Source: Verrucomicrobiales bacterium
GTDB lineage: Bacteria; Verrucomicrobiota; Verrucomicrobiia; Verrucomicrobiales; DEV007
Assembly: GCA_016795505.1 (NCBI GenBank)
Contig: JAEUHH010000047.1
Coordinates: forward strand, 1 to 37,560
Length of the DNA stretch: 37,560 nucleotides
Direction: 5' to 3'
Shown here: in pieces, positions 9,209-28,299 of the stretch
Numbering within the stretch: the first letter of the stretch is position 1
How the letters are laid out: each line of letters starts with the position of its first letter
Translations under genes and position numbers: made by a program
Notes under the pieces: generated by a model
Seen by the model: only the letters and a program-made list of their open reading frames with translations
Database searches by the model: none
Told to the model about the DNA's origin: nothing

Positions 9209-9383
9209 AGGCCGCCGGGCCGTGATCGGCCGCCCCCGATGCCGTTCCGCCGCCCCTGCCGGGGCGGTCTCGTCAGGGTGGGCCGGTATCCGGTGGCTGT
9301 CGCCACCGGCTGATTTCCGGGAAGCCTCCGGCTCCCTCTTTTGGCCTTCTTTCTCGACGCAGCCGCTCGCGATCGAACCGGGT
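9209..9383. repeat. 175-bp direct repeat, copy 1
   Basis: This block and 9550-9724 are aligned without gaps at an offset of 341 bases and differ at only a few positions. It contains the perfect hairpin CCGGTGGCTGTCGCCACCGG (9290-9309) and ends in a CCGATC-family repeat (CGATCGAACCGGGT). The reverse complement of the hairpin is at 9483-9502. No coding sense. Confidence 0.85.
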
Positions 9384-9391
9384 CTGATCGG
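9370..9391. repeat. Dispersed CCGATC...ATCGG repeat (single unit)
   Basis: CGATCGAACCGGGTCTGATC followed by GG, at the end of the 175-bp repeat copy 1. Same family as at 1765. Confidence 0.55.
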
Positions 9392-21262: not shown

Positions 21263-22147
21263 ATGTCCCTGCGCCTCGAGATGCTCCAGGTCGCCCGGCT
21301 CGCCCCGGCCGTTCTGGGAGCCGAAGCCAGCGGTCTCATTGAGCATTTCATCCGCAGCCAGCACCACGCGGACGGCGGATTCAGCGACCGCGCCGGCCAG
21401 AGCGACCTCTACTACACCAGTTTCGCCGTCGACACCCTCACCGCTCTCCAGGTCGAGGTGCCTTGGGAAGGACTGTCGCCCTACCTGGACCGGCAGTTCG
21501 ATGCCCTCGACGACCTCGACTTCGTTCACCTCTGCTGCCTTGCCCGGCTGCTTTCCGCCCGGCCCGGCCGATCCGATCGCGTCGGCGAGGTGCTGAGCCA
21601 GTTGCATCGTTACCGCTCCGCCGACGGCGGCTACAACCAGATCGACGACGCCCCGACCGGCTCCGCCTACGCCTGCTTCCTCGCCTACGGCGCCCATGCC
21701 GACCACGGCCTGCCCTTGCCCGATCCCGATGGCGTCGCCCGCTGCCTCGACGGGCTCGCCACCCCCGATGGCGCCTGGGCCAATGACACCGTCTTTCCCA
21801 TTCCCAACGTCCCCGCCACCGCCGCCGCCATCACCGTGCGGCGGAATCTCCGGCTGCCCGTTCCCCCCGCCACCACCGACTGGTTGCTCGGTGCCTTTCA
21901 TCTCGAAAGCGGTGGCTTTCTCCCTTTTCCCGAGGCGCCCATGCCCGATCTGTTGTCCACCGCCGTCGCCCTGCACGCCCTCGACGGCCTGCAGGTTCCC
22001 TTCGGCAAGATCAAGGAGCCCCTGCTCGACTACATCGACACCCTCTGGACCGCCGAGGGCGGCTTCCATGGCACCTGGGACGATGACGATCTCGACATCG
22101 AATACACCTACTACGGTCTCCTCGCCCTCGGCCACCTCGCCCTGTGA
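21263..22147 (+). CDS. Prenyltransferase/squalene-cyclase-type alpha-toroid protein
   Basis: 294 residues built from about five alpha-alpha repeats, each led by a glycine turn: DGGFSDRAGQSDLYYTSFA, DGGYNQIDDAPTGSAYACF, DGAWANDT, SGGFLPFPEAPMPDLLST and EGGFHGTWDDDDLDIEYTYY. This is the toroid of protein prenyltransferase beta subunits and terpene cyclases. The zinc ligands of protein prenyltransferases (D-x-C and a late His) are not seen: the matching place reads DIEYTYY. A DDDD run is present near the C-terminus but not the DxDD context of squalene-hopene cyclase. The protein is short and without signal peptide. It starts 21 bases after the cytochrome gene, so they are probably one operon. 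Enzyme or binding protein cannot be decided. Confidence 0.85.
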   Translation: MSLRLEMLQVARLAPAVLGAEASGLIEHFIRSQHHADGGFSDRAGQSDLYYTSFAVDTLTALQVEVPWEGLSPYLDRQFDALDDLDFVHLCCLARLLSARPGRSDRVGEVLSQLHRYRSADGGYNQIDDAPTGSAYACFLAYGAHADHGLPLPDPDGVARCLDGLATPDGAWANDTVFPIPNVPATAAAITVRRNLRLPVPPATTDWLLGAFHLESGGFLPFPEAPMPDLLSTAVALHALDGLQVPFGKIKEPLLDYIDTLWTAEGGFHGTWDDDDLDIEYTYYGLLALGHLAL

Positions 22148-22162
22148 GGGCGGGCGGTTTTT

Positions 22163-22206
22163 CAATCAGACCCTGTTGCATCGGCGATCAGACCCTGTTG
22201 CATCGG
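22163..22206. repeat. Dispersed CCGATC...ATCGG repeat (two exact units)
   Basis: Two units of CAGACCCTGTTGCATCGG, preceded by AAT and GAT respectively, just after the toroid gene stop. Same family as at 1765. Confidence 0.7.
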
Positions 22207-22292
22207 AAATCCCGGACTCCGGCTTTCGCCCGTTGGCGCGATCGGTCCGGCGGGCATTTTTTCGGCGGCGGCGACATTTTTTTCTTGCATGG

Positions 22293-22306
22293 ATTACGAG
22301 TGTAAG
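22293..22306. promoter_or_regulatory. BlaI-type operator 1
   Basis: ATTACGAGTGTAAG, an imperfect palindrome of the TACA-N-TGTA type bound by BlaI/MecI repressors. Its centre is 24 bases from operator 2, and both lie just before the blaI-like gene. Confidence 0.7.
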
Positions 22307-22316
22307 ATTTCATTCG

Positions 22317-22330
22317 CTTACAACTGTAAG
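22317..22330. promoter_or_regulatory. BlaI-type operator 2
   Basis: CTTACAACTGTAAG, a perfect palindrome containing TACA and TGTA, 26 bases before the ATG at 22357. Binding here would block transcription of the repressor-protease pair, which is classic autoregulation. Confidence 0.8.
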
Positions 22331-22356
22331 CCGAAGTTCTTTCCCTCCCGTTCCAG

Positions 22357-22755
22357 ATGCCCAAGACCCCGCCAGCTCCGCGTATTTCAGACTCCGAATG
22401 GACCGTGATGCGGGTCTTTTGGAATCGCGGCGAGGCCACCGCCTCCGATGCCGTCACGGCGCTCGAGGATGAGACCCACTGGAAGCCGAAGACGATTCAA
22501 ACGCTGATTCGTCGGCTGGTGCAAAAAGGTGCCCTGACCTATGAGAAGCAGGGCCGGGAATTTCTCTACCGCCCCGCGGTGGATGAAAAGACCTGCGAGA
22601 GGGCTGCCAGCCGGGAATTCCTGGACCGGGTCTTTCAGGGGCGGCTCGCCCCATTCCTGGCGACTTTTGTGGAAAACAATCCCTGCTCCGACGAGGAACT
22701 CGCCGAACTCAAACGCATCCTGGAGGATAGCCAAACCGATGGAACCGATCGCTGA
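22357..22755 (+). CDS. BlaI/MecI family transcriptional repressor
   Basis: 132 residues, the usual family length. The winged helix is at about 8-78: RISDSEWTVMRVFWNRGEAT, the recognition helix region KTIQTLIRRLVQKGAL, and the wing YEKQGREFLYRP. The C-terminal helices (about 85-130) form the dimer region that is cut by the partner protease in BlaI and MecI. The gene overlaps the next one by 17 bases (ATG at 22739, stop at 22755), so translation is coupled. Two operator-like palindromes lie upstream (22293-22330). By family knowledge it is a cytoplasmic dimeric repressor released by cleavage. The genes it controls besides its own pair are not visible here; no beta-lactamase lies nearby. Confidence 0.93.
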   Translation: MPKTPPAPRISDSEWTVMRVFWNRGEATASDAVTALEDETHWKPKTIQTLIRRLVQKGALTYEKQGREFLYRPAVDEKTCERAASREFLDRVFQGRLAPFLATFVENNPCSDEELAELKRILEDSQTDGTDR

Positions 22756-24637
22756 TTTTCTGACCGCCGCCGTCGCGTGGACGGCGCGCAATTCCCTCTC
22801 CGCCGCGGTGCTCACCATCATCGTGCTCCTGGTGACGCGCCTGCTGGGCGGTCGCCTGCACCCGCTGCTGGCCACCTGGCTCTGGGGCGCCGTCGGGGTG
22901 CGTCTGGTGCTGCCGGTTGCTCCGGAGAGCGCCTTCAGCCTCGCCCGGTTGTTGCCCAGTTCACCTGAACCCGCCCCGGCACAGACCGATTGGCCGGGCC
23001 AGTGGGAAGTAGTGGCTTCGGTGGACCCGTTTCACGTGCCGGCTGGCGATCTGGCGGCGGTGGCCGCGCCCGCCAGCCCGGTGCCCTGGCTGGCTCTCCT
23101 CGGATCGCTCTGGGGCGCGGTGGCTATCGGATTGCTGGGGCTGACTCTCTGGCGGCAGTGGGTTACCTCCCGTCGTCTGGACGAAGCTCCGCGCTGGACC
23201 GAGCCGACGGTGAGAGCGCTGCTGACCGATTGCGCCCGAGAGGCCGGAGTGGCTCCCGGCTTTCAGGTCGTCGCGGGACCGGCTGGCGGCGGTGTGGCCG
23301 TCTTTGGCGGTCTGCGTGTGACGCATCTCATCATCCCGGCGGATTTTGCCGACCGCTACTCGGTCGCCGAGCAGCGAGGCATCCTGCTGCACGAACTGGC
23401 CCACATCCGCCGACACGATCTTATCTGGAACTGGGCCACCCATGTCATCCAGTGTCTGCATTGGTTCAATCCCCTCATCTGGATCGCCGGCCGCCGCTTT
23501 CTCGCTCTCCGGGAGACGCTCTGTGACCGCGACGCGGTGCAGCGCCTCGCCGACGCCGACCGCCGCAGCTACGGAGCCGCCCTGCTCAAAGCCATCGAGC
23601 AGGGGCGCCCCGCGACAACAGCGCATCCGGCTTTTGCCCCTTTCTTCTCTCAAACCTCTGAAATCAAACACCGCCTAACCATGATCCTTAAACCCCAATC
23701 CACCCCCCTGTCGATCCAACTCACCGTCGCCGCGCTCGCCGTGGCCACGGGACTCGTCACCTTCACCGCCGCCCCGAGCCTCGCCGACGAGGAACGCCCC
23801 GAGCGCGGCAGCGAGCGCGAATCCGCCCGCGATGGTGAACGCGAACGAGGCCGCGAAGAATCCCCGGAGCGCTCCCGCGAAGGCGAGCGCGAATCCGCCC
23901 GCGACGGCGAGCGGGAACGCGAAACGCCCCGCTCCTCCCGTGAAGGCGAGCGCGAGCGCGAACGCGAAGGCGACAGCCCCGAGCGCGGCCGCGAACGCTC
24001 CGAGCGGGAAAGCGCCCGCGATGGCGAGGGCGAGCGCGGCAGCAGCCGGGAACGCGAAGGCGGCGACCGCGAGGGCGCCCCGGCCATGCGCGGCGGCGCC
24101 GTGGGCATCGCCATCCAGCGCGACGGCGTGTCCATCAATGGCGGCCGGCCCGTACCGTTGGTCAACCTGCGCCGCGAACTGGAAGCCGTCAGCGCCAAGA
24201 GCGCCGTGCTCCAAGCCGCCCAGGGCGTGCCCTTCCAGACGGTGGAGACCGTCATGACCGCGCTGAAGAGCAGCGGCATCCAGGAGATTTCCTTCGGTAA
24301 CGCCGCCACCGCCGCCCGCGATGGCGACGGTGGAGCGTCCCGCGAAGGCATGCGCGACGGCGACGGTGGAGCGTCCCGCGAAGGCATGCGCGACGGCGAC
24401 GGCGGACGGTCCACTGGCCCACGCGACGGCGATGGCGCTCCCAAAGCGGGCCCCCGCGACGGTGAAGGTGCCCCGAAATCGGGTCCCCGCGATGGCGAAG
24501 GCGAACGGCCCAGTGGCCCCCGCGACGGTGAAGTCCGCCGCGAAGGCGCCCGCGAAGGCGAAGTCCGCCGTGAGGGTGACGCCCCCCGCGAGGGTGCCCG
24601 CGAAGGCAGCGAGTCCCGCCGCGAGGGCGACCGCTGA
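22739..24637 (+). CDS. M56 (BlaR1-like) membrane metalloprotease with ExbD/TolR-like domain and charged repeats
   Basis: 632 residues. Membrane segments lie at about 15-35, 45-62, 117-140 and 323-345. The zinc protease motif LLHELAHIRRHD has His218, Glu219 and His222, followed by LHWFNPLIWIAGRRF and ETLCDRDA, typical of peptidase M56. After the last helix comes the exported part: residues 351-449 are an extreme Arg/Glu/Ser low-complexity stretch (repeating ESARDGERE and SREGERE). Residues about 450-520 form a folded domain resembling the periplasmic part of ExbD/TolR (GVSINGGRPVPLVNLRRELE, then VPFQTVETVMTALKSSGIQE). Residues 525-632 are Gly/Asp/Arg-rich tandem repeats (RDGDGGASREGM and variants). 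No penicillin-binding domain is present, so this is not a beta-lactam sensor of the BlaR1 kind. Start at 22739 gives a 17-base overlap with the repressor gene. Confidence 0.9.
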   Translation: MEPIADFLTAAVAWTARNSLSAAVLTIIVLLVTRLLGGRLHPLLATWLWGAVGVRLVLPVAPESAFSLARLLPSSPEPAPAQTDWPGQWEVVASVDPFHVPAGDLAAVAAPASPVPWLALLGSLWGAVAIGLLGLTLWRQWVTSRRLDEAPRWTEPTVRALLTDCAREAGVAPGFQVVAGPAGGGVAVFGGLRVTHLIIPADFADRYSVAEQRGILLHELAHIRRHDLIWNWATHVIQCLHWFNPLIWIAGRRFLALRETLCDRDAVQRLADADRRSYGAALLKAIEQGRPATTAHPAFAPFFSQTSEIKHRLTMILKPQSTPLSIQLTVAALAVATGLVTFTAAPSLADEERPERGSERESARDGERERGREESPERSREGERESARDGERERETPRSSREGEREREREGDSPERGRERSERESARDGEGERGSSREREGGDREGAPAMRGGAVGIAIQRDGVSINGGRPVPLVNLRRELEAVSAKSAVLQAAQGVPFQTVETVMTALKSSGIQEISFGNAATAARDGDGGASREGMRDGDGGASREGMRDGDGGRSTGPRDGDGAPKAGPRDGEGAPKSGPRDGEGERPSGPRDGEVRREGAREGEVRREGDAPREGAREGSESRREGDR

Positions 24638-24656
24638 AAGCCGACCCTTTTTTCTC

Positions 24657-24693
24657 AGCCAGCCAGTCCGGGTAGGCCCGGGATTGGCTGGCT
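24657..24693 (+). terminator. Hairpin after the M56 gene
   Basis: AGCCAGCCA pairs with TGGCTGGCT, and CCGGG pairs with CCCGG inside, 19 bases after the stop. The T-run lies on the left side (CCCTTTTTT), not on the right, so as a plus-strand terminator it is incomplete. Confidence 0.45.
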
Positions 24694-24794
24694 CCTCACC
24701 GACAGACGCCCCGGGACCGCCGCCGTCCCGGCTGCCTTCCTGATGAACGCCAGCCACACCGGCCTGGCTGGCGGCTTCCCCTTGCCTTGTTGCC

Positions 24795-26786
24795 ATGAGA
24801 GCCCTGTCTTGCCTGCCCCTCGCCGCTGCGTTCTCGCTTCTGCTCCCCGCGGGCAATGCCCCGGCCCAGGATGAGGATCTTCCCTGGTCCTTCCGGCCCG
24901 TGGCCCGGCCAGCGATCGATCCGACTGCCTACGCGAACTGGGCCCGCGACGATCTGGATCGGCTCATCGCCGCGAGGCTGGAAGCCGCCGGGCTGCGGCC
25001 AAATGGCGACGCCGACCGGCCGACGCTGATCCGCCGCGCCGCCTTCGACCTGACCGGACTGCCGCCGACGACCGCAGAACTCGACCGGTTTCTCGCTGAT
25101 CCCGCGCCGACGCACGAGGCCTTTGCCCGCGTCGTGGACAGCTACCTCGCCAGCCCGCGCTTCGGTGAGCGTTGGGCGCGTCACTGGCTCGATGTGGCCC
25201 GCTACGCGGACAGCGTCGGGCGCACGTGGAATGCCCCCTTTCCCTATGCGTGGAAATACCGCGACTGGGTGATCGCGGCGTTCAATGAGGACAAACCCTA
25301 TCACCGATTCGTCGCCGAGCAGATCGCCGGCGACCTGCTGCCCGCCGCGACCGTCGAGCAGCGCCGCGAGCAGGTCATCGGCACCGGCTTTCTCACCCTC
25401 GGCTCCCTGACCCTCAACAATGGCGGCGGCGACGGCTACCTGCTGGACCAGATCGACGACCAGATCGACGTCACCACCCGCGGCTTCCTCGCCCTCAGCA
25501 TCGCCTGCGCCCGCTGCCACGACCACAGCTACGACCCGGTCACCCAGATCGACTACTACGCCCTCGCCGGCATTTTTCACAGCTCCTGGACCTATCCCGG
25601 TCAGGCTCATGTCAGCGACCACACCGCCGCCGGCTACCTCGATCCCGAGATGCTCGTCAGCCTGCCCACTGACCTCGACTCACCGCTGAAACGCGTCTCC
25701 TCCATCCCCTCCGGCGTCCACACCATGGGCGATCTGCGGCAGTTCGGCGGAAAGGCTCCCCCGCCCTACGATCTCGTGGCCGACTGGGCCATGGGCATGC
25801 GCGAGGGCAAGCCGGCCGACTGCGAGCTGCGGGTCAAAGGCATCGCCTACGACCTCGGCGATGCCCCGCCCCGCGGAGACATCCGCATCCCCGGTCTGCC
25901 CGATTTTCCGCCCGTCCCCGCCGATGCCAGCGGCCGGCTCCAGCTCGCCCAGTGGATCGCCTCGCCCACGCATCCGCTGACTGCGCGGGTGATGGTCAAC
26001 CGCATCTGGCAGCACCTCTTCGGGCGCGGGTTGGTCGAGACAGTGGACAACTTCGGTACCACCGGCCGCGAACCCAGCCATCCGGAGTTGCTCGATCACC
26101 TCGCCATCCGTTTCGTCGAGGGCGACTGGTCGGTGAAACGGCTCATCCGCACCATCCTGCTCAGCCGCACTTATTCCCTCGATGGTTCTGCCCAGCCAGC
26201 TGGGATGGAGAAAGACCCCGACAACACCCTCTACTGGCGCACAACACCACGTCGGCTCGAGCTGGAGCCGATTCGCGACACCCTGCTCGCCGTCTCCGGC
26301 GATCTGGAGCCCGAGCCACCCGCCCCCGGTCATCTCGCCGGCATGAGCGGCCGCGGCAATGGTCGCCTGCGCAGTGAACTCGGCTTCGACTCACCCTATC
26401 GCACCATTTACCTGCCCATCCTGCGCGACCTTCTGCCCGACGAGTATGCCACCTTCGATTTCCCCGATCCCAGCGGCGTCAACGGCCTGCGCCACGTCAC
26501 CACCGCGCCGCCCCAGGCCCTCTTTTTCCTGAACAGCCGCTTCGTCGCCGATGCCGCCCGCCGCACTGCCATCCGCCTGCTGGAGGGGGAAAAAAGCGAC
26601 GCTGACCGTATTCGGGCGGCCTACCGCCTCATTCTGAGCCGCGATCCCGCCGCCGCCGAGGTGGCCGACGCGGAATCGCTGATGACAACCCTCGACGCTG
26701 CGGGCAGCGACGATCCCGAGATCCATCGCTGGTCCGTATTCATCCAATCCCTCTTCGCCGGCGCCGAGTTTCGCTACGTGTTGTGA
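24795..26786 (+). CDS. Secreted DUF1549/DUF1553 (PSD1-type) protein
   Basis: 663 residues. Signal peptide (LPLAAAFSLLLPAGNAPAQ), then DUF1549 at about 45-260 with RRAAFDLTGLPPTTAELDRF, RFGERWARHWLDVARYADS and the haem-like motif CARCHDH (Cys238, Cys241, His242). DUF1553 follows at about 370-630 (RLQLAQWIASPTHPLTARVM, NRIWQHLFGRGLVETVDNFG, PPQALFFLNSRFV). The long PSD1 family usually has an N-terminal cytochrome (PSCyt1) and often a central concanavalin-like domain; both are missing, so this is the short form. The gene is followed 42 bases later by a DUF1501 gene, the normal pairing in Planctomycetes and Verrucomicrobia. The role is thought to be degradation of complex polysaccharides outside the cytoplasm, without proven biochemistry. 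Confidence 0.93.
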   Translation: MRALSCLPLAAAFSLLLPAGNAPAQDEDLPWSFRPVARPAIDPTAYANWARDDLDRLIAARLEAAGLRPNGDADRPTLIRRAAFDLTGLPPTTAELDRFLADPAPTHEAFARVVDSYLASPRFGERWARHWLDVARYADSVGRTWNAPFPYAWKYRDWVIAAFNEDKPYHRFVAEQIAGDLLPAATVEQRREQVIGTGFLTLGSLTLNNGGGDGYLLDQIDDQIDVTTRGFLALSIACARCHDHSYDPVTQIDYYALAGIFHSSWTYPGQAHVSDHTAAGYLDPEMLVSLPTDLDSPLKRVSSIPSGVHTMGDLRQFGGKAPPPYDLVADWAMGMREGKPADCELRVKGIAYDLGDAPPRGDIRIPGLPDFPPVPADASGRLQLAQWIASPTHPLTARVMVNRIWQHLFGRGLVETVDNFGTTGREPSHPELLDHLAIRFVEGDWSVKRLIRTILLSRTYSLDGSAQPAGMEKDPDNTLYWRTTPRRLELEPIRDTLLAVSGDLEPEPPAPGHLAGMSGRGNGRLRSELGFDSPYRTIYLPILRDLLPDEYATFDFPDPSGVNGLRHVTTAPPQALFFLNSRFVADAARRTAIRLLEGEKSDADRIRAAYRLILSRDPAAAEVADAESLMTTLDAAGSDDPEIHRWSVFIQSLFAGAEFRYVL

Positions 26787-26828: not shown

Positions 26829-28157
26829 ATGCACCGCCGCCACTTCCTCCTCCACACCGGCCCGGCTTTTGGCAGCCTGGCGCTCGGCGCGCTGCTCCCG
26901 CAGTGGTTGCCCAGCGCGCTGGGCAATCCCCTCGCGCCCAAGACCGGCCACCATCCGGCGAAAGCCCGGCGCGTCATCTTCCTGTTCATGAATGGCGGCC
27001 CCAGCCATCATGAAACCTTCGACTACCGCCCGGAACTGGCCAAAGCCGCCGCCTCGACGCCGCGCCTCCTCGCACCGGGCGTGGCTTTCCGTCCGGCCGG
27101 ACAAAGCGGACTGATGATTTCCGAGGCCTTCCCCGAGCTGGCCCGCCACGCCGATGATCTCTGCATTCTCAACGGCATGAAGATCGACACCAACGGCCAT
27201 CACCAGGCCGTGGTGCGCCTCCACACCGGCAACGAGCGCTTCGTGCGGCCTTCCATGGGCAGTTGGGTCGTTTACGGCCTCGGCAGCGAAGCCGACGACC
27301 TGCCCGGCTTTGTCACCATCAGTCCCATCGCCGATCTCGGTGGCGCGGGCAACTACGGCTCCGCCTTCCTGCCGGCCAGCTACCAGGGCACCCGCATCGC
27401 CGGGAGCGGAGCCGGCAGCGTGCCGCACCTGTCGAACGCCCGACTCTCCACCGCCGATCAGCGTGCCCAACTCGACCACATCGGCCGGTCGAACCAGCGA
27501 CTCGCGGAGCGGTTTCCCGGCAATCCCGCCTTCGACGGCGTGATCCAGAGCTACGAGATGGCGTTCAAGATGCAGACCTCCATCCCGGAGACCTTCGACC
27601 TCGCCGCCGAGCCCGAGTCGGTGCGCGCCCTCTACGGCATCGGCGACGGCGTCACCGATGGCTTCGGCAGCCAGTGCCTGATGGCCCGCCGCCTCGCCGA
27701 GCGCGGGGTACGCTTCATCCAGCTCACTTCGAATGGTTGGGACCACCACATGAATGTCGCCCAGGGCGTCCGGGACCGCGCCGCCGCCAACGACAAGCCC
27801 ATCGCCGGCCTGCTCGCCGATCTCAAGCAGCGCGACCTGCTCAAGGACACCCTCGTCGTGTGGGGCGGCGAATTCGGCCGCGGCGCCCACGAGGACAATG
27901 CCGGCGGACGAGGGCACAACGGCAGCGGCTTCACCTTCTGGATGGCTGGCGGCGGCGTGAAAGGTGGCTACGTCCACGGATCGAAGGACGACCTCGGCGC
28001 CGAGTCCGTCGAGGGCATCCTGAATTTTGCCGACCTCCACGCCACCATCCTGCACCTCCTCGGCCTCGACCACGAGCGGCTCAGCTACCGCTACGCCGGC
28101 CGCAACTTCCGCCTCACCGACACCGAGGGCGTCGTGGCGCAGGAGATTCTGGCGTGA
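26829..28157 (+). CDS. DUF1501 (sulfatase-like) secreted protein
   Basis: 442 residues of the DUF1501 family, related to the alkaline phosphatase/sulfatase superfamily. The N-terminus MHRRHFLLHTGPAFGSLALG has an Arg-Arg pair and hydrophobic stretch consistent with Tat export. Family blocks: RRVIFLFMNGGPSHHETFDY, then SEAFPELARHADDLCILNGM, GSWVVYGLGSE, RRLAERGVRFIQLTSNGWDH, VVWGGEFGRGAHE and a late DLHATILHLLGLDHERL. The conserved Asn/Gly-Gly-Pro-Ser-His and WGGEFGR motifs are intact, so it should be active if the family is enzymatic. It pairs with the DUF1549/1553 gene just upstream. Reaction not known; possibly removal of a sulfate or phosphate from polysaccharides, by analogy to the superfamily. 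Confidence 0.93.
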   Translation: MHRRHFLLHTGPAFGSLALGALLPQWLPSALGNPLAPKTGHHPAKARRVIFLFMNGGPSHHETFDYRPELAKAAASTPRLLAPGVAFRPAGQSGLMISEAFPELARHADDLCILNGMKIDTNGHHQAVVRLHTGNERFVRPSMGSWVVYGLGSEADDLPGFVTISPIADLGGAGNYGSAFLPASYQGTRIAGSGAGSVPHLSNARLSTADQRAQLDHIGRSNQRLAERFPGNPAFDGVIQSYEMAFKMQTSIPETFDLAAEPESVRALYGIGDGVTDGFGSQCLMARRLAERGVRFIQLTSNGWDHHMNVAQGVRDRAAANDKPIAGLLADLKQRDLLKDTLVVWGGEFGRGAHEDNAGGRGHNGSGFTFWMAGGGVKGGYVHGSKDDLGAESVEGILNFADLHATILHLLGLDHERLSYRYAGRNFRLTDTEGVVAQEILA

Positions 28158-28252: not shown

Positions 28253-28299
28253 CCGATCAGACAGGGTATGATCGCCGATGCAACAGGGTCTCATCGGAA
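28253..28299. repeat. Dispersed CCGATC...ATCGG repeat (two units, inverted)
   Basis: CCGATCAGACAGGGTATGATC, then GCCGATGCAACAGGGTCTCA with ATCGG. The second unit is the reverse complement orientation of the copy at 22163. It lies between convergent genes. Confidence 0.65.

Follow-up and report, generated by a model that had tools for sequence, protein, structure and literature searches.

A BlaR1-type protease with an ExbD-fold outer domain that likely controls secreted polysaccharide-processing genes in a Verrucomicrobiales bacterium

BlaR1-like M56 proteases have, to our knowledge, been studied mainly as antibiotic sensors, and we know of many M56–BlaI pairs without a described input. The closest characterized systems are BlaR1/BlaI and MecR1/MecI of Staphylococcus and Bacillus. 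We analyzed a 37,560-nucleotide stretch of DNA (the window) from the draft genome of a Verrucomicrobiales bacterium (assembly GCA_016795505.1, contig JAEUHH010000047.1, positions 1 to 37,560), in which a gene for a 132-amino acid BlaI/MecI-type repressor (22357–22755, + strand) is followed on the same strand by one for a 632-amino acid M56 protease (22739–24637). The end of blaI and the start of the protease gene have 17 bases in common. As in these systems, a BlaI-type repressor with a hydrophobic residue at the position aligned with P1' adjoins an M56 protease with the HExxH...E...D signature, whose model matches BlaR1 (8exp–8ext). Unlike BlaR1 and MecR1, the window protease has no penicillin sensor and carries an ExbD-fold domain on charged arms; it also differs in its occurrence in Verrucomicrobiota and in its probable targets, which are a lyase gene and genes for PSCyt2/PSD1 and DUF1501 proteins. 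The pair is likely a BlaR1-type switch over secreted polysaccharide-processing genes, and a one-step switch of the BlaR1/BlaI type equipped with a new sensor is the best overall explanation and a reasonably probable one.

The repressor passes the Pfam cut-off for the Penicillinase_R domain (PF03965; 123.7 versus 22.6 bits; E 6e-36) and matches MecI (1okr; E 3.5e-20). In the protease, residues 17–316 (22787–23686, + strand) match the M56 peptidase family in Pfam (PF05569; E 6e-43), and all 39 protease sequences compared share H218, E219, H222, E259, and D263. H218, H222, and E259 align with His201, His205, and Glu242, the zinc ligands described for BlaR1 (PMC9834060). The full-length model is confident for the M56 body and for the ExbD-fold domain; in Foldseek, chains of S. 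aureus BlaR1 (8exp–8ext) occupy ranks 1–6, and ExbD chains appear from rank 10. The BlaR1-like membrane and zinc parts that an earlier note had recognized from the letters of this DNA are thus borne out. P301, which aligns with BlaR1 Ser283 at the self-cleavage site, is kept in 38 of the 39 proteases. All 37 BlaI sequences compared have F, L, or M (F104 here) at the position aligned with P1' of the known cut site.

Membership of both proteins in the same families as those of S. aureus could suggest an ordinary beta-lactam sensor–repressor pair. This is almost certainly wrong, as Pfam and NCBIfam scans find no penicillin-binding domain in the protease at E <= 1, the NCBIfam model blaR1_generic reaches only 99.3 bits against a cut-off of 400 with a match confined to residues 24–340, and no beta-lactamase was recognized among the operator targets read. 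An ordinary beta-lactam receptor was ruled out for want of the penicillin-binding domain in these scans.

In place of the penicillin sensor, residues 450–523 (24086–24307, + strand) form a domain of ~70 residues whose predicted fold is confirmed, concordantly by profile, model, and search of the PDB, as that of the ExbD/TolR periplasmic domain. The AlphaFold2 model of the domain (pLDDT 89.6) has two strands, a helix, a strand, a helix, and a strand, as in ExbD and TolR. The top five Foldseek matches are all ExbD (TM-score 0.73–0.75 over the model; E 3e-4 to 1e-3); ranks past these are mixed, because unrelated ribosomal proteins stand at 6 and 8, with TolR at 9 and 10. VIA-align gives Z-scores of 9–10 (9.8 for 8pek, 9.7 for 8p9r, and 9.5 for TolR, 5by4), and 7.4 for the best unrelated row. 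The structure prediction that the earlier note had proposed therefore recovered the TolR/ExbD-like module it had expected.

Sequence profiles place the domain in the same family. The ExbD family (PF02472) matches residues 455–520 of the whole protein (E 0.002; 18.6 bits), while the bare domain scores 23.8–23.9 bits (E 5e-5), below the cut-off of 25.4, which is passed by two relatives (L060, 27.4 bits; L122, 26.2 bits; handles beginning with L, G, and C denote loci, genomes, and contigs). Contigs of genomes were scanned with the full alignment and the best 80 of 423 relatives taken as loci. Of these, 78 gave an M56 reading frame (L076 and L079 did not), and 38 of the 78 hold the ExbD-fold domain; L096, whose ExbD part is in another frame, is outside the 38. 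Thirty-five of 38 aligned domains (the window's and those of 37 relatives) match PF02472 at E <= 0.1, and a profile of the domain family aligned with eight true ExbD proteins of the window's genome at a probability of 98.6 (hhalign; E 7e-16). A PDB profile search with ten aligned sequences was led astray by designed helical repeats, and ExbD came seventh (E 0.077). No relative of the domain was found in the viral collection. Chance resemblance to ExbD was ruled out by the conservation of the domain in relatives and by its fold. The PF02472 match spans only profile positions 55–124, in the C-terminal half of the family, and follows the charged stretch; unlike in ExbD, the membrane-helix region is absent, being replaced by the M56 body and a charged arm. 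The protein is not a penicillin receptor, and it is not a true ExbD either.

The two charged stretches of ~100 residues that the earlier note had seen framing the domain have the compositions it described, and both are disordered in the model. Residues ~349–449 are 30% E and 27% R (Arg/Glu stretch, residues 350–449, 23786–24085), and residues 524–632 are 26% G, 19% R, 13% E, and 12% D (24308–24634); pLDDT is below 50 for residues 351–451 and 524–629. The first stretch follows the last membrane helix (residues 324–342, 23708–23764; seen in hydropathy and as a helix in the model) and an AxA-like motif, S-L-A (residues 347–349, 23777–23785), which is a possible signal-peptidase site but suggestive only. 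An AxA-like motif past the last helix occurs in 34 of 38 ExbD-type relatives versus 17 of 39 other M56 proteins (excluding L113, an M56 protein without a clear last helix). In S. aureus, the BlaR1 sensor is reported to be cut off by signal peptidase (PMC9834060). By this precedent, the charged arm and ExbD-fold domain could be shed and act as a secreted protein, leaving the M56 part to work alone, and one relative (G089) does encode, under an operator and before a lyase gene, a separate secreted charged coiled-coil protein. We regard this as quite improbable, since shedding coexists with sensing in BlaR1 and the motif is also present in those 17 other M56 proteins.

The targets of the switch are indicated by its operators. 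BlaI is preceded by two dyads of the TACA...TGTA type, which we take to be the BlaI/MecI binding motif and which, conserved among relatives, presumably stand at promoters here. Operator 1 (TTACGAGTGTAA) is at 22294–22305, with an extended core GGATTACGAGTGTAAG from 22291, and operator 2 (TTACAACTGTAA) is at 22318–22329, 24 bases past operator 1; the candidate BlaI operator sequence is GGATTACANNTGTAATCC. The paired operators that the earlier note had placed before blaI are thereby upheld. At least two dyads within two mismatches of TTACANNTGTAA occur near blaI in 28 of the 34 ExbD-type loci with enough upstream sequence, while the reversed motif occurs twice in none of the 34 and at least once in five. 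The spacing of the dyads is 20–24 bases in the 17 loci having two sites within one mismatch, and an extended core, GGATTACRNNYGTAA then T or G, is mostly common to the sites.

Across the 6.5-Mb draft, the pattern TTACRNNYGTAA occurs at four places only (the reversed pattern at 19). Two are before blaI and two are on contig C6 (4897–4908 and 5085–5096); a second locus was thus obtained from the genome scan the earlier note had called for. Sites with one mismatch on contigs C31 and C54 have no recognizable target link among the reading frames there. Loci fetched for the exact pattern number 33. The extended core is present in 19, at blaI in 17 and before PSD1 in two. The 14 without it include one at blaI (L228) and one within a gene resembling DUF1501 (L178), and contain no homologue of the lyase or of PSD1. 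One place is counted twice in each of these groups, and operator rows without a fetched locus are mostly left out. In seven genomes of the sister group, a scan for a second operator form (TTACANNTGTCA) found it at blaI and elsewhere; two of its sites fall inside PSD1-like genes (L207 and L210), and in these genomes none is at a recognized lyase or PSD1 promoter.

The C6 operator pair sits between two divergent genes. One, beginning near the first site, encodes a protein with weak TPR matches; the other (C6:5152–6672) encodes a pectate-lyase-like protein that begins with a signal-like sequence (PF09492; 53.4 bits versus a cut-off of 22). The family profile of this protein matches pectate lyase 1r76 (E 4e-14). 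It is like the pectate lyases 1r76 and 1gxm in sequence, with partial coverage only, and is a predicted lyase. A lyase homologue is also found behind the protease on the same strand in 26 of the 80 loci, namely 24 of the 38 ExbD-type loci, L080, and L096, and behind none of 30 other M56 proteases. The gap between the protease and lyase genes is 53–141 bases in 14 loci and 352–809 in 12, several of the wide gaps holding other reading frames of at least 90 residues; no operator (up to one mismatch) lies between the two genes in any of the 26. For lyase genes located elsewhere, an operator is upstream in three of four same-genus genomes, these being the window's own, G138 (just upstream), and G089. 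Upstream regions of 20 lyase homologues were scanned; apart from these, L155 has 114 bases upstream, which hold no site, and the remaining rows were left out. Between the operator and the lyase gene of G089 is the gene for the secreted charged coiled-coil protein (L149/L195); viewed by eye, its charged stretch and coiled coil look like the tails of the L077 and L084 proteases. In both G089 and G138 (L195 and L196), a gene for an M19 peptidase (membrane dipeptidase) is divergent from the lyase gene across the operator.

In the window itself, the protease gene is followed on the + strand by genes for a PSCyt2/PSD1 protein (DUF1549/DUF1553; 24795–26786) and a DUF1501 protein (26829–28157), assigned by Pfam and both probable regulon members. 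PSD1 was counted behind the protease or lyase in 19 of 38 ExbD-type loci and DUF1501 in 16 of 38, versus 0 of 30 other M56 loci for each; in two of the 30, a DUF1501 homologue is present at another position of the locus. Ten further charged-tail loci, mostly cut short and without a found ExbD domain, include a lyase in two and PSD1 or DUF1501 in none. The protease–PSD1 gap is 157 bases in the window and 41–83 in L060–L062 (estimated starts); for L059 and L094, no PSD1 start could be assigned. An operator also stands before PSD1 genes outside the operon in G047 (77% protein identity with the window's PSD1 over 656 residues) and in G550; L090 is a locus of the latter genome, and no PSD1 homologue was counted behind its lyase. 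A polysaccharide deacetylase gene of G089 (PF01522; E 4e-9) has the extended operator as well. Passages of a 2017 survey state that nothing is known of the functions of PSCyt and PSD genes, and that sulfatase genes frequently have putative pectin lyase and PSCyt genes nearby (PMC5615132). We are confident of the circuit and of its target genes, as read from the operators and gene neighborhoods.

These observations suggest how the switch may operate. BlaI bound to GGATTACANNTGTAA-type operators would repress its own operon, the secreted pectate-lyase-like gene, and the PSCyt2/PSD1 and DUF1501 genes. The M56 protein would cross the inner membrane, its zinc site facing the cytoplasm, while outside the long charged, disordered arm would hold the ExbD-fold domain, which is probably the sensor. 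On contact of this domain with its ligand or partner (most likely a glycan, either from the cell wall or from a polysaccharide under degradation), the signal would pass through the membrane part to the zinc site, where BlaI would be cut and the genes expressed.

A glycan is our guess at the ligand, tentatively held and preferred because of the target genes. ExbD domains are reported to interact with glycan chains of peptidoglycan and to capture the TonB D-box, which makes either kind of ligand, glycan or peptide, conceivable. The ExbD dimer captures a single D-box peptide of TonB by strand recruitment (PMC10907165), and loop EL1 of BlaR1 is described as lying competitively in the sensor active site (PMC9834060). 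The domain might likewise capture a peptide strand rather than a glycan, either from TonB, coupling gene control to transport, or from an outer loop of the protease itself. In the position of the N-terminal strand of ExbD, the window protein has the charged arm, which could leave an edge of the sheet free. Peptide capture is nevertheless somewhat unlikely, as the loop (residues 62–112) mostly has pLDDT below 50 and forms no strand in the single-chain model.

A further possibility is that the domain senses the bacterium's own peptidoglycan, binding glycan strands of the wall and reporting damage or remodeling, which is close to the cell-wall sensing favored by the earlier note. Peptidoglycan binding by the domain is conceivable, because the periplasmic ExbD domains of Serratia and E. 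coli are reported to interact with peptidoglycan transiently and through its glycan chains; the same report describes no interaction of the Serratia domain with B. subtilis peptidoglycan, which has non-acetylated glucosamine (PMC10771500). The deacetylase under an operator in one relative and the M19 dipeptidase across it in two could act on the wall. The operator targets are mostly pectate-lyase-like, PSCyt2/PSD1, and DUF1501 genes, however, and no wall-synthesis or wall-repair gene was recognized among those read, which makes sensing of the own wall unlikely. Taken together, the lyase, PSCyt2/PSD1, DUF1501, and single deacetylase genes point to polysaccharide processing rather than to cell-wall state; of the earlier interpretation, the paired operators and the likeness to BlaR1 in the body and to ExbD/TolR in the fold are supported, but not the sensing of the wall. 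The fullest form of the glycan reading, in which a BlaR1-type protease has taken over the periplasmic domain of the Ton/Tol motors as its glycan receptor and controls a lyase/PSCyt2/PSD1/DUF1501 regulon by repressor cutting, is possible but speculative.

The domain occurs in related genomes mostly as part of M56 fusions; cultured bacteria with the system include Brevifollis gellanilyticus NBRC 108608 (L069). A search with the 74-residue domain matched 11 of 189 genomes of the order at E <= 0.001; the ten matches other than the window's are nine M56 proteins of the same build and one true ExbD (L030). In the window's own family, 25 of 74 genomes match the profile at E <= 1e-5, and 12, including the window's, do so above 100 bits as M56 fusions. 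Six lower-scoring matches comprise true ExbD proteins (L045 and L052), M56 fusions (L044, L048, and L051), and a protein without M56 (L050). In a sample of the phylum, at least two of 387 genomes match the domain profile at E <= 1e-8, a count that is a lower bound because scoring was limited to 15 candidates per genome and that says little about rarity. In a tree of 83 M56 domains (L101 and L102 being identical in this part), 49 rows form one supported Verrucomicrobiales clade (98/93) with the window's protein within it; 38 of these, again including the window's, have the domain, seven are cut short, and four lack it. L122 and the pair L048/L051, which have ExbD-like ends, fall outside the clade, though the placing of L048/L051 is unsure owing to long branches. 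Since these lie elsewhere in the tree, M56 and ExbD-like domains were probably joined more than once, as judged from sequence.

Several relatives have other outer parts. L059–L062 have an added EF-hand-like tail, recognized by pattern, and the EF-hand of L060 passes the Pfam cut-off; L080 and L202 have a charged arm and an EF-hand pair, with no ExbD-fold domain found. L048 and L051 (G147 and G544), from other M56 branches, also have STN-like, coiled-coil, or PDZ-like parts by eye. The window's genome has a second BlaI–M56 pair (C75:99531–100746; L004 and L143), another possible reuse of outer-membrane-system domains. Like the window protease, L004, which has an adjoining BlaI gene, and L122 combine an M56 body with outer parts related to outer-membrane systems; unlike it, they belong to other M56 branches, have no charged arm, and have secretin/STN matches below the Pfam cut-offs. 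L122 also ends in its above-cut-off ExbD match, and its secretin match is weak. Another reading frame of the same genome (L018; C94:1280–1489) ends in an ExbD-like periplasmic domain without M56. Loci labeled Akkermansia muciniphila (L074 and L087) and Klebsiella pneumoniae (L135) have M56 proteins that group with Prosthecobacter-like proteins or with the second M56 protein of the window's genome, and these contigs are possibly misnamed bins.

A number of observations weigh against a BlaR1-type switch over these target genes. With regard to the protease, the position aligned with the self-cleavage P1' residue is Cys in 33 of 39 sequences, Phe in five, and Ile in one, the S. aureus BlaR1 residue being Phe284. 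Four proteases of the same clade have no ExbD-fold domain (L077, L080, L084, and L202), and L080 still has the lyase gene behind it. With regard to the lyase, an operator (up to one mismatch) is found at only three of the 20 scanned homologues outside the operon. It is absent in the same-genus genome G187 and at 16 distant homologues, which are 35–47% identical and possibly paralogues; three of the 16 are second copies in same-genus genomes. The G089 site is ~650 bases upstream of the lyase gene, before another gene that precedes it. With regard to the genes behind the protease, only 15 of the 30 control M56 loci have more than 4 kb downstream, and some PSD1 and DUF1501 neighbors may be due to chance, because these are paralogous families. 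L064, L066, L068, L089, and L122 have no target gene behind the protease in 3.5–6 kb of room, and G554, the genome of L101, has no PSD1 homologue behind its lyase, the two extra operator-like places read there (L225 and L231) not being at PSD1. Between the protease and PSD1 genes of the window lies a strong hairpin (24657–24693, + strand; z -2.45 for the stretch folded as a whole) that has no T tail. It could hinder read-through into the PSD1 gene; it is not among the rows of the terminator scan.

A scan of 22100–25000 for the sigma-70 consensus found no promoter. The draft genome is 96.6% complete and comprises 6.5 Mb in 120 contigs; it encodes two M56 proteins and yields 14 ExbD matches, including the window's. 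An interspersed repeat near GATCAGACCCTGTTGCATC has copies at 22164–22204, 28277–28295, 1788–1806, and 9371–9389 of the window, in which five matches to it occur within three mismatches (chance mean 0.00).

Searches of the open-licence literature found no paper joining M56, ExbD, and BlaI, which does not show that none has been published; BlaR1 and ExbD were found together only in a Chryseobacterium genome paper. The same literature yielded no paper joining DUF1501 with DUF1553 or BlaI with the planctomycete-specific PSCyt/DUF1549 genes, and no earlier work on M56 in Verrucomicrobia or on M56 with TonB.

The M56–BlaI pair described here thus has a recognizable, unexpected outer module and a target set backed in several ways by comparative evidence. 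If the proposed switch is correct, it would add a class of ligand other than penicillins to those of BlaR1-like receptors. It would also provide a regulatory handle on the PSCyt2/PSD1 proteins, for which the BlaI operon would be a testable means of switching expression.

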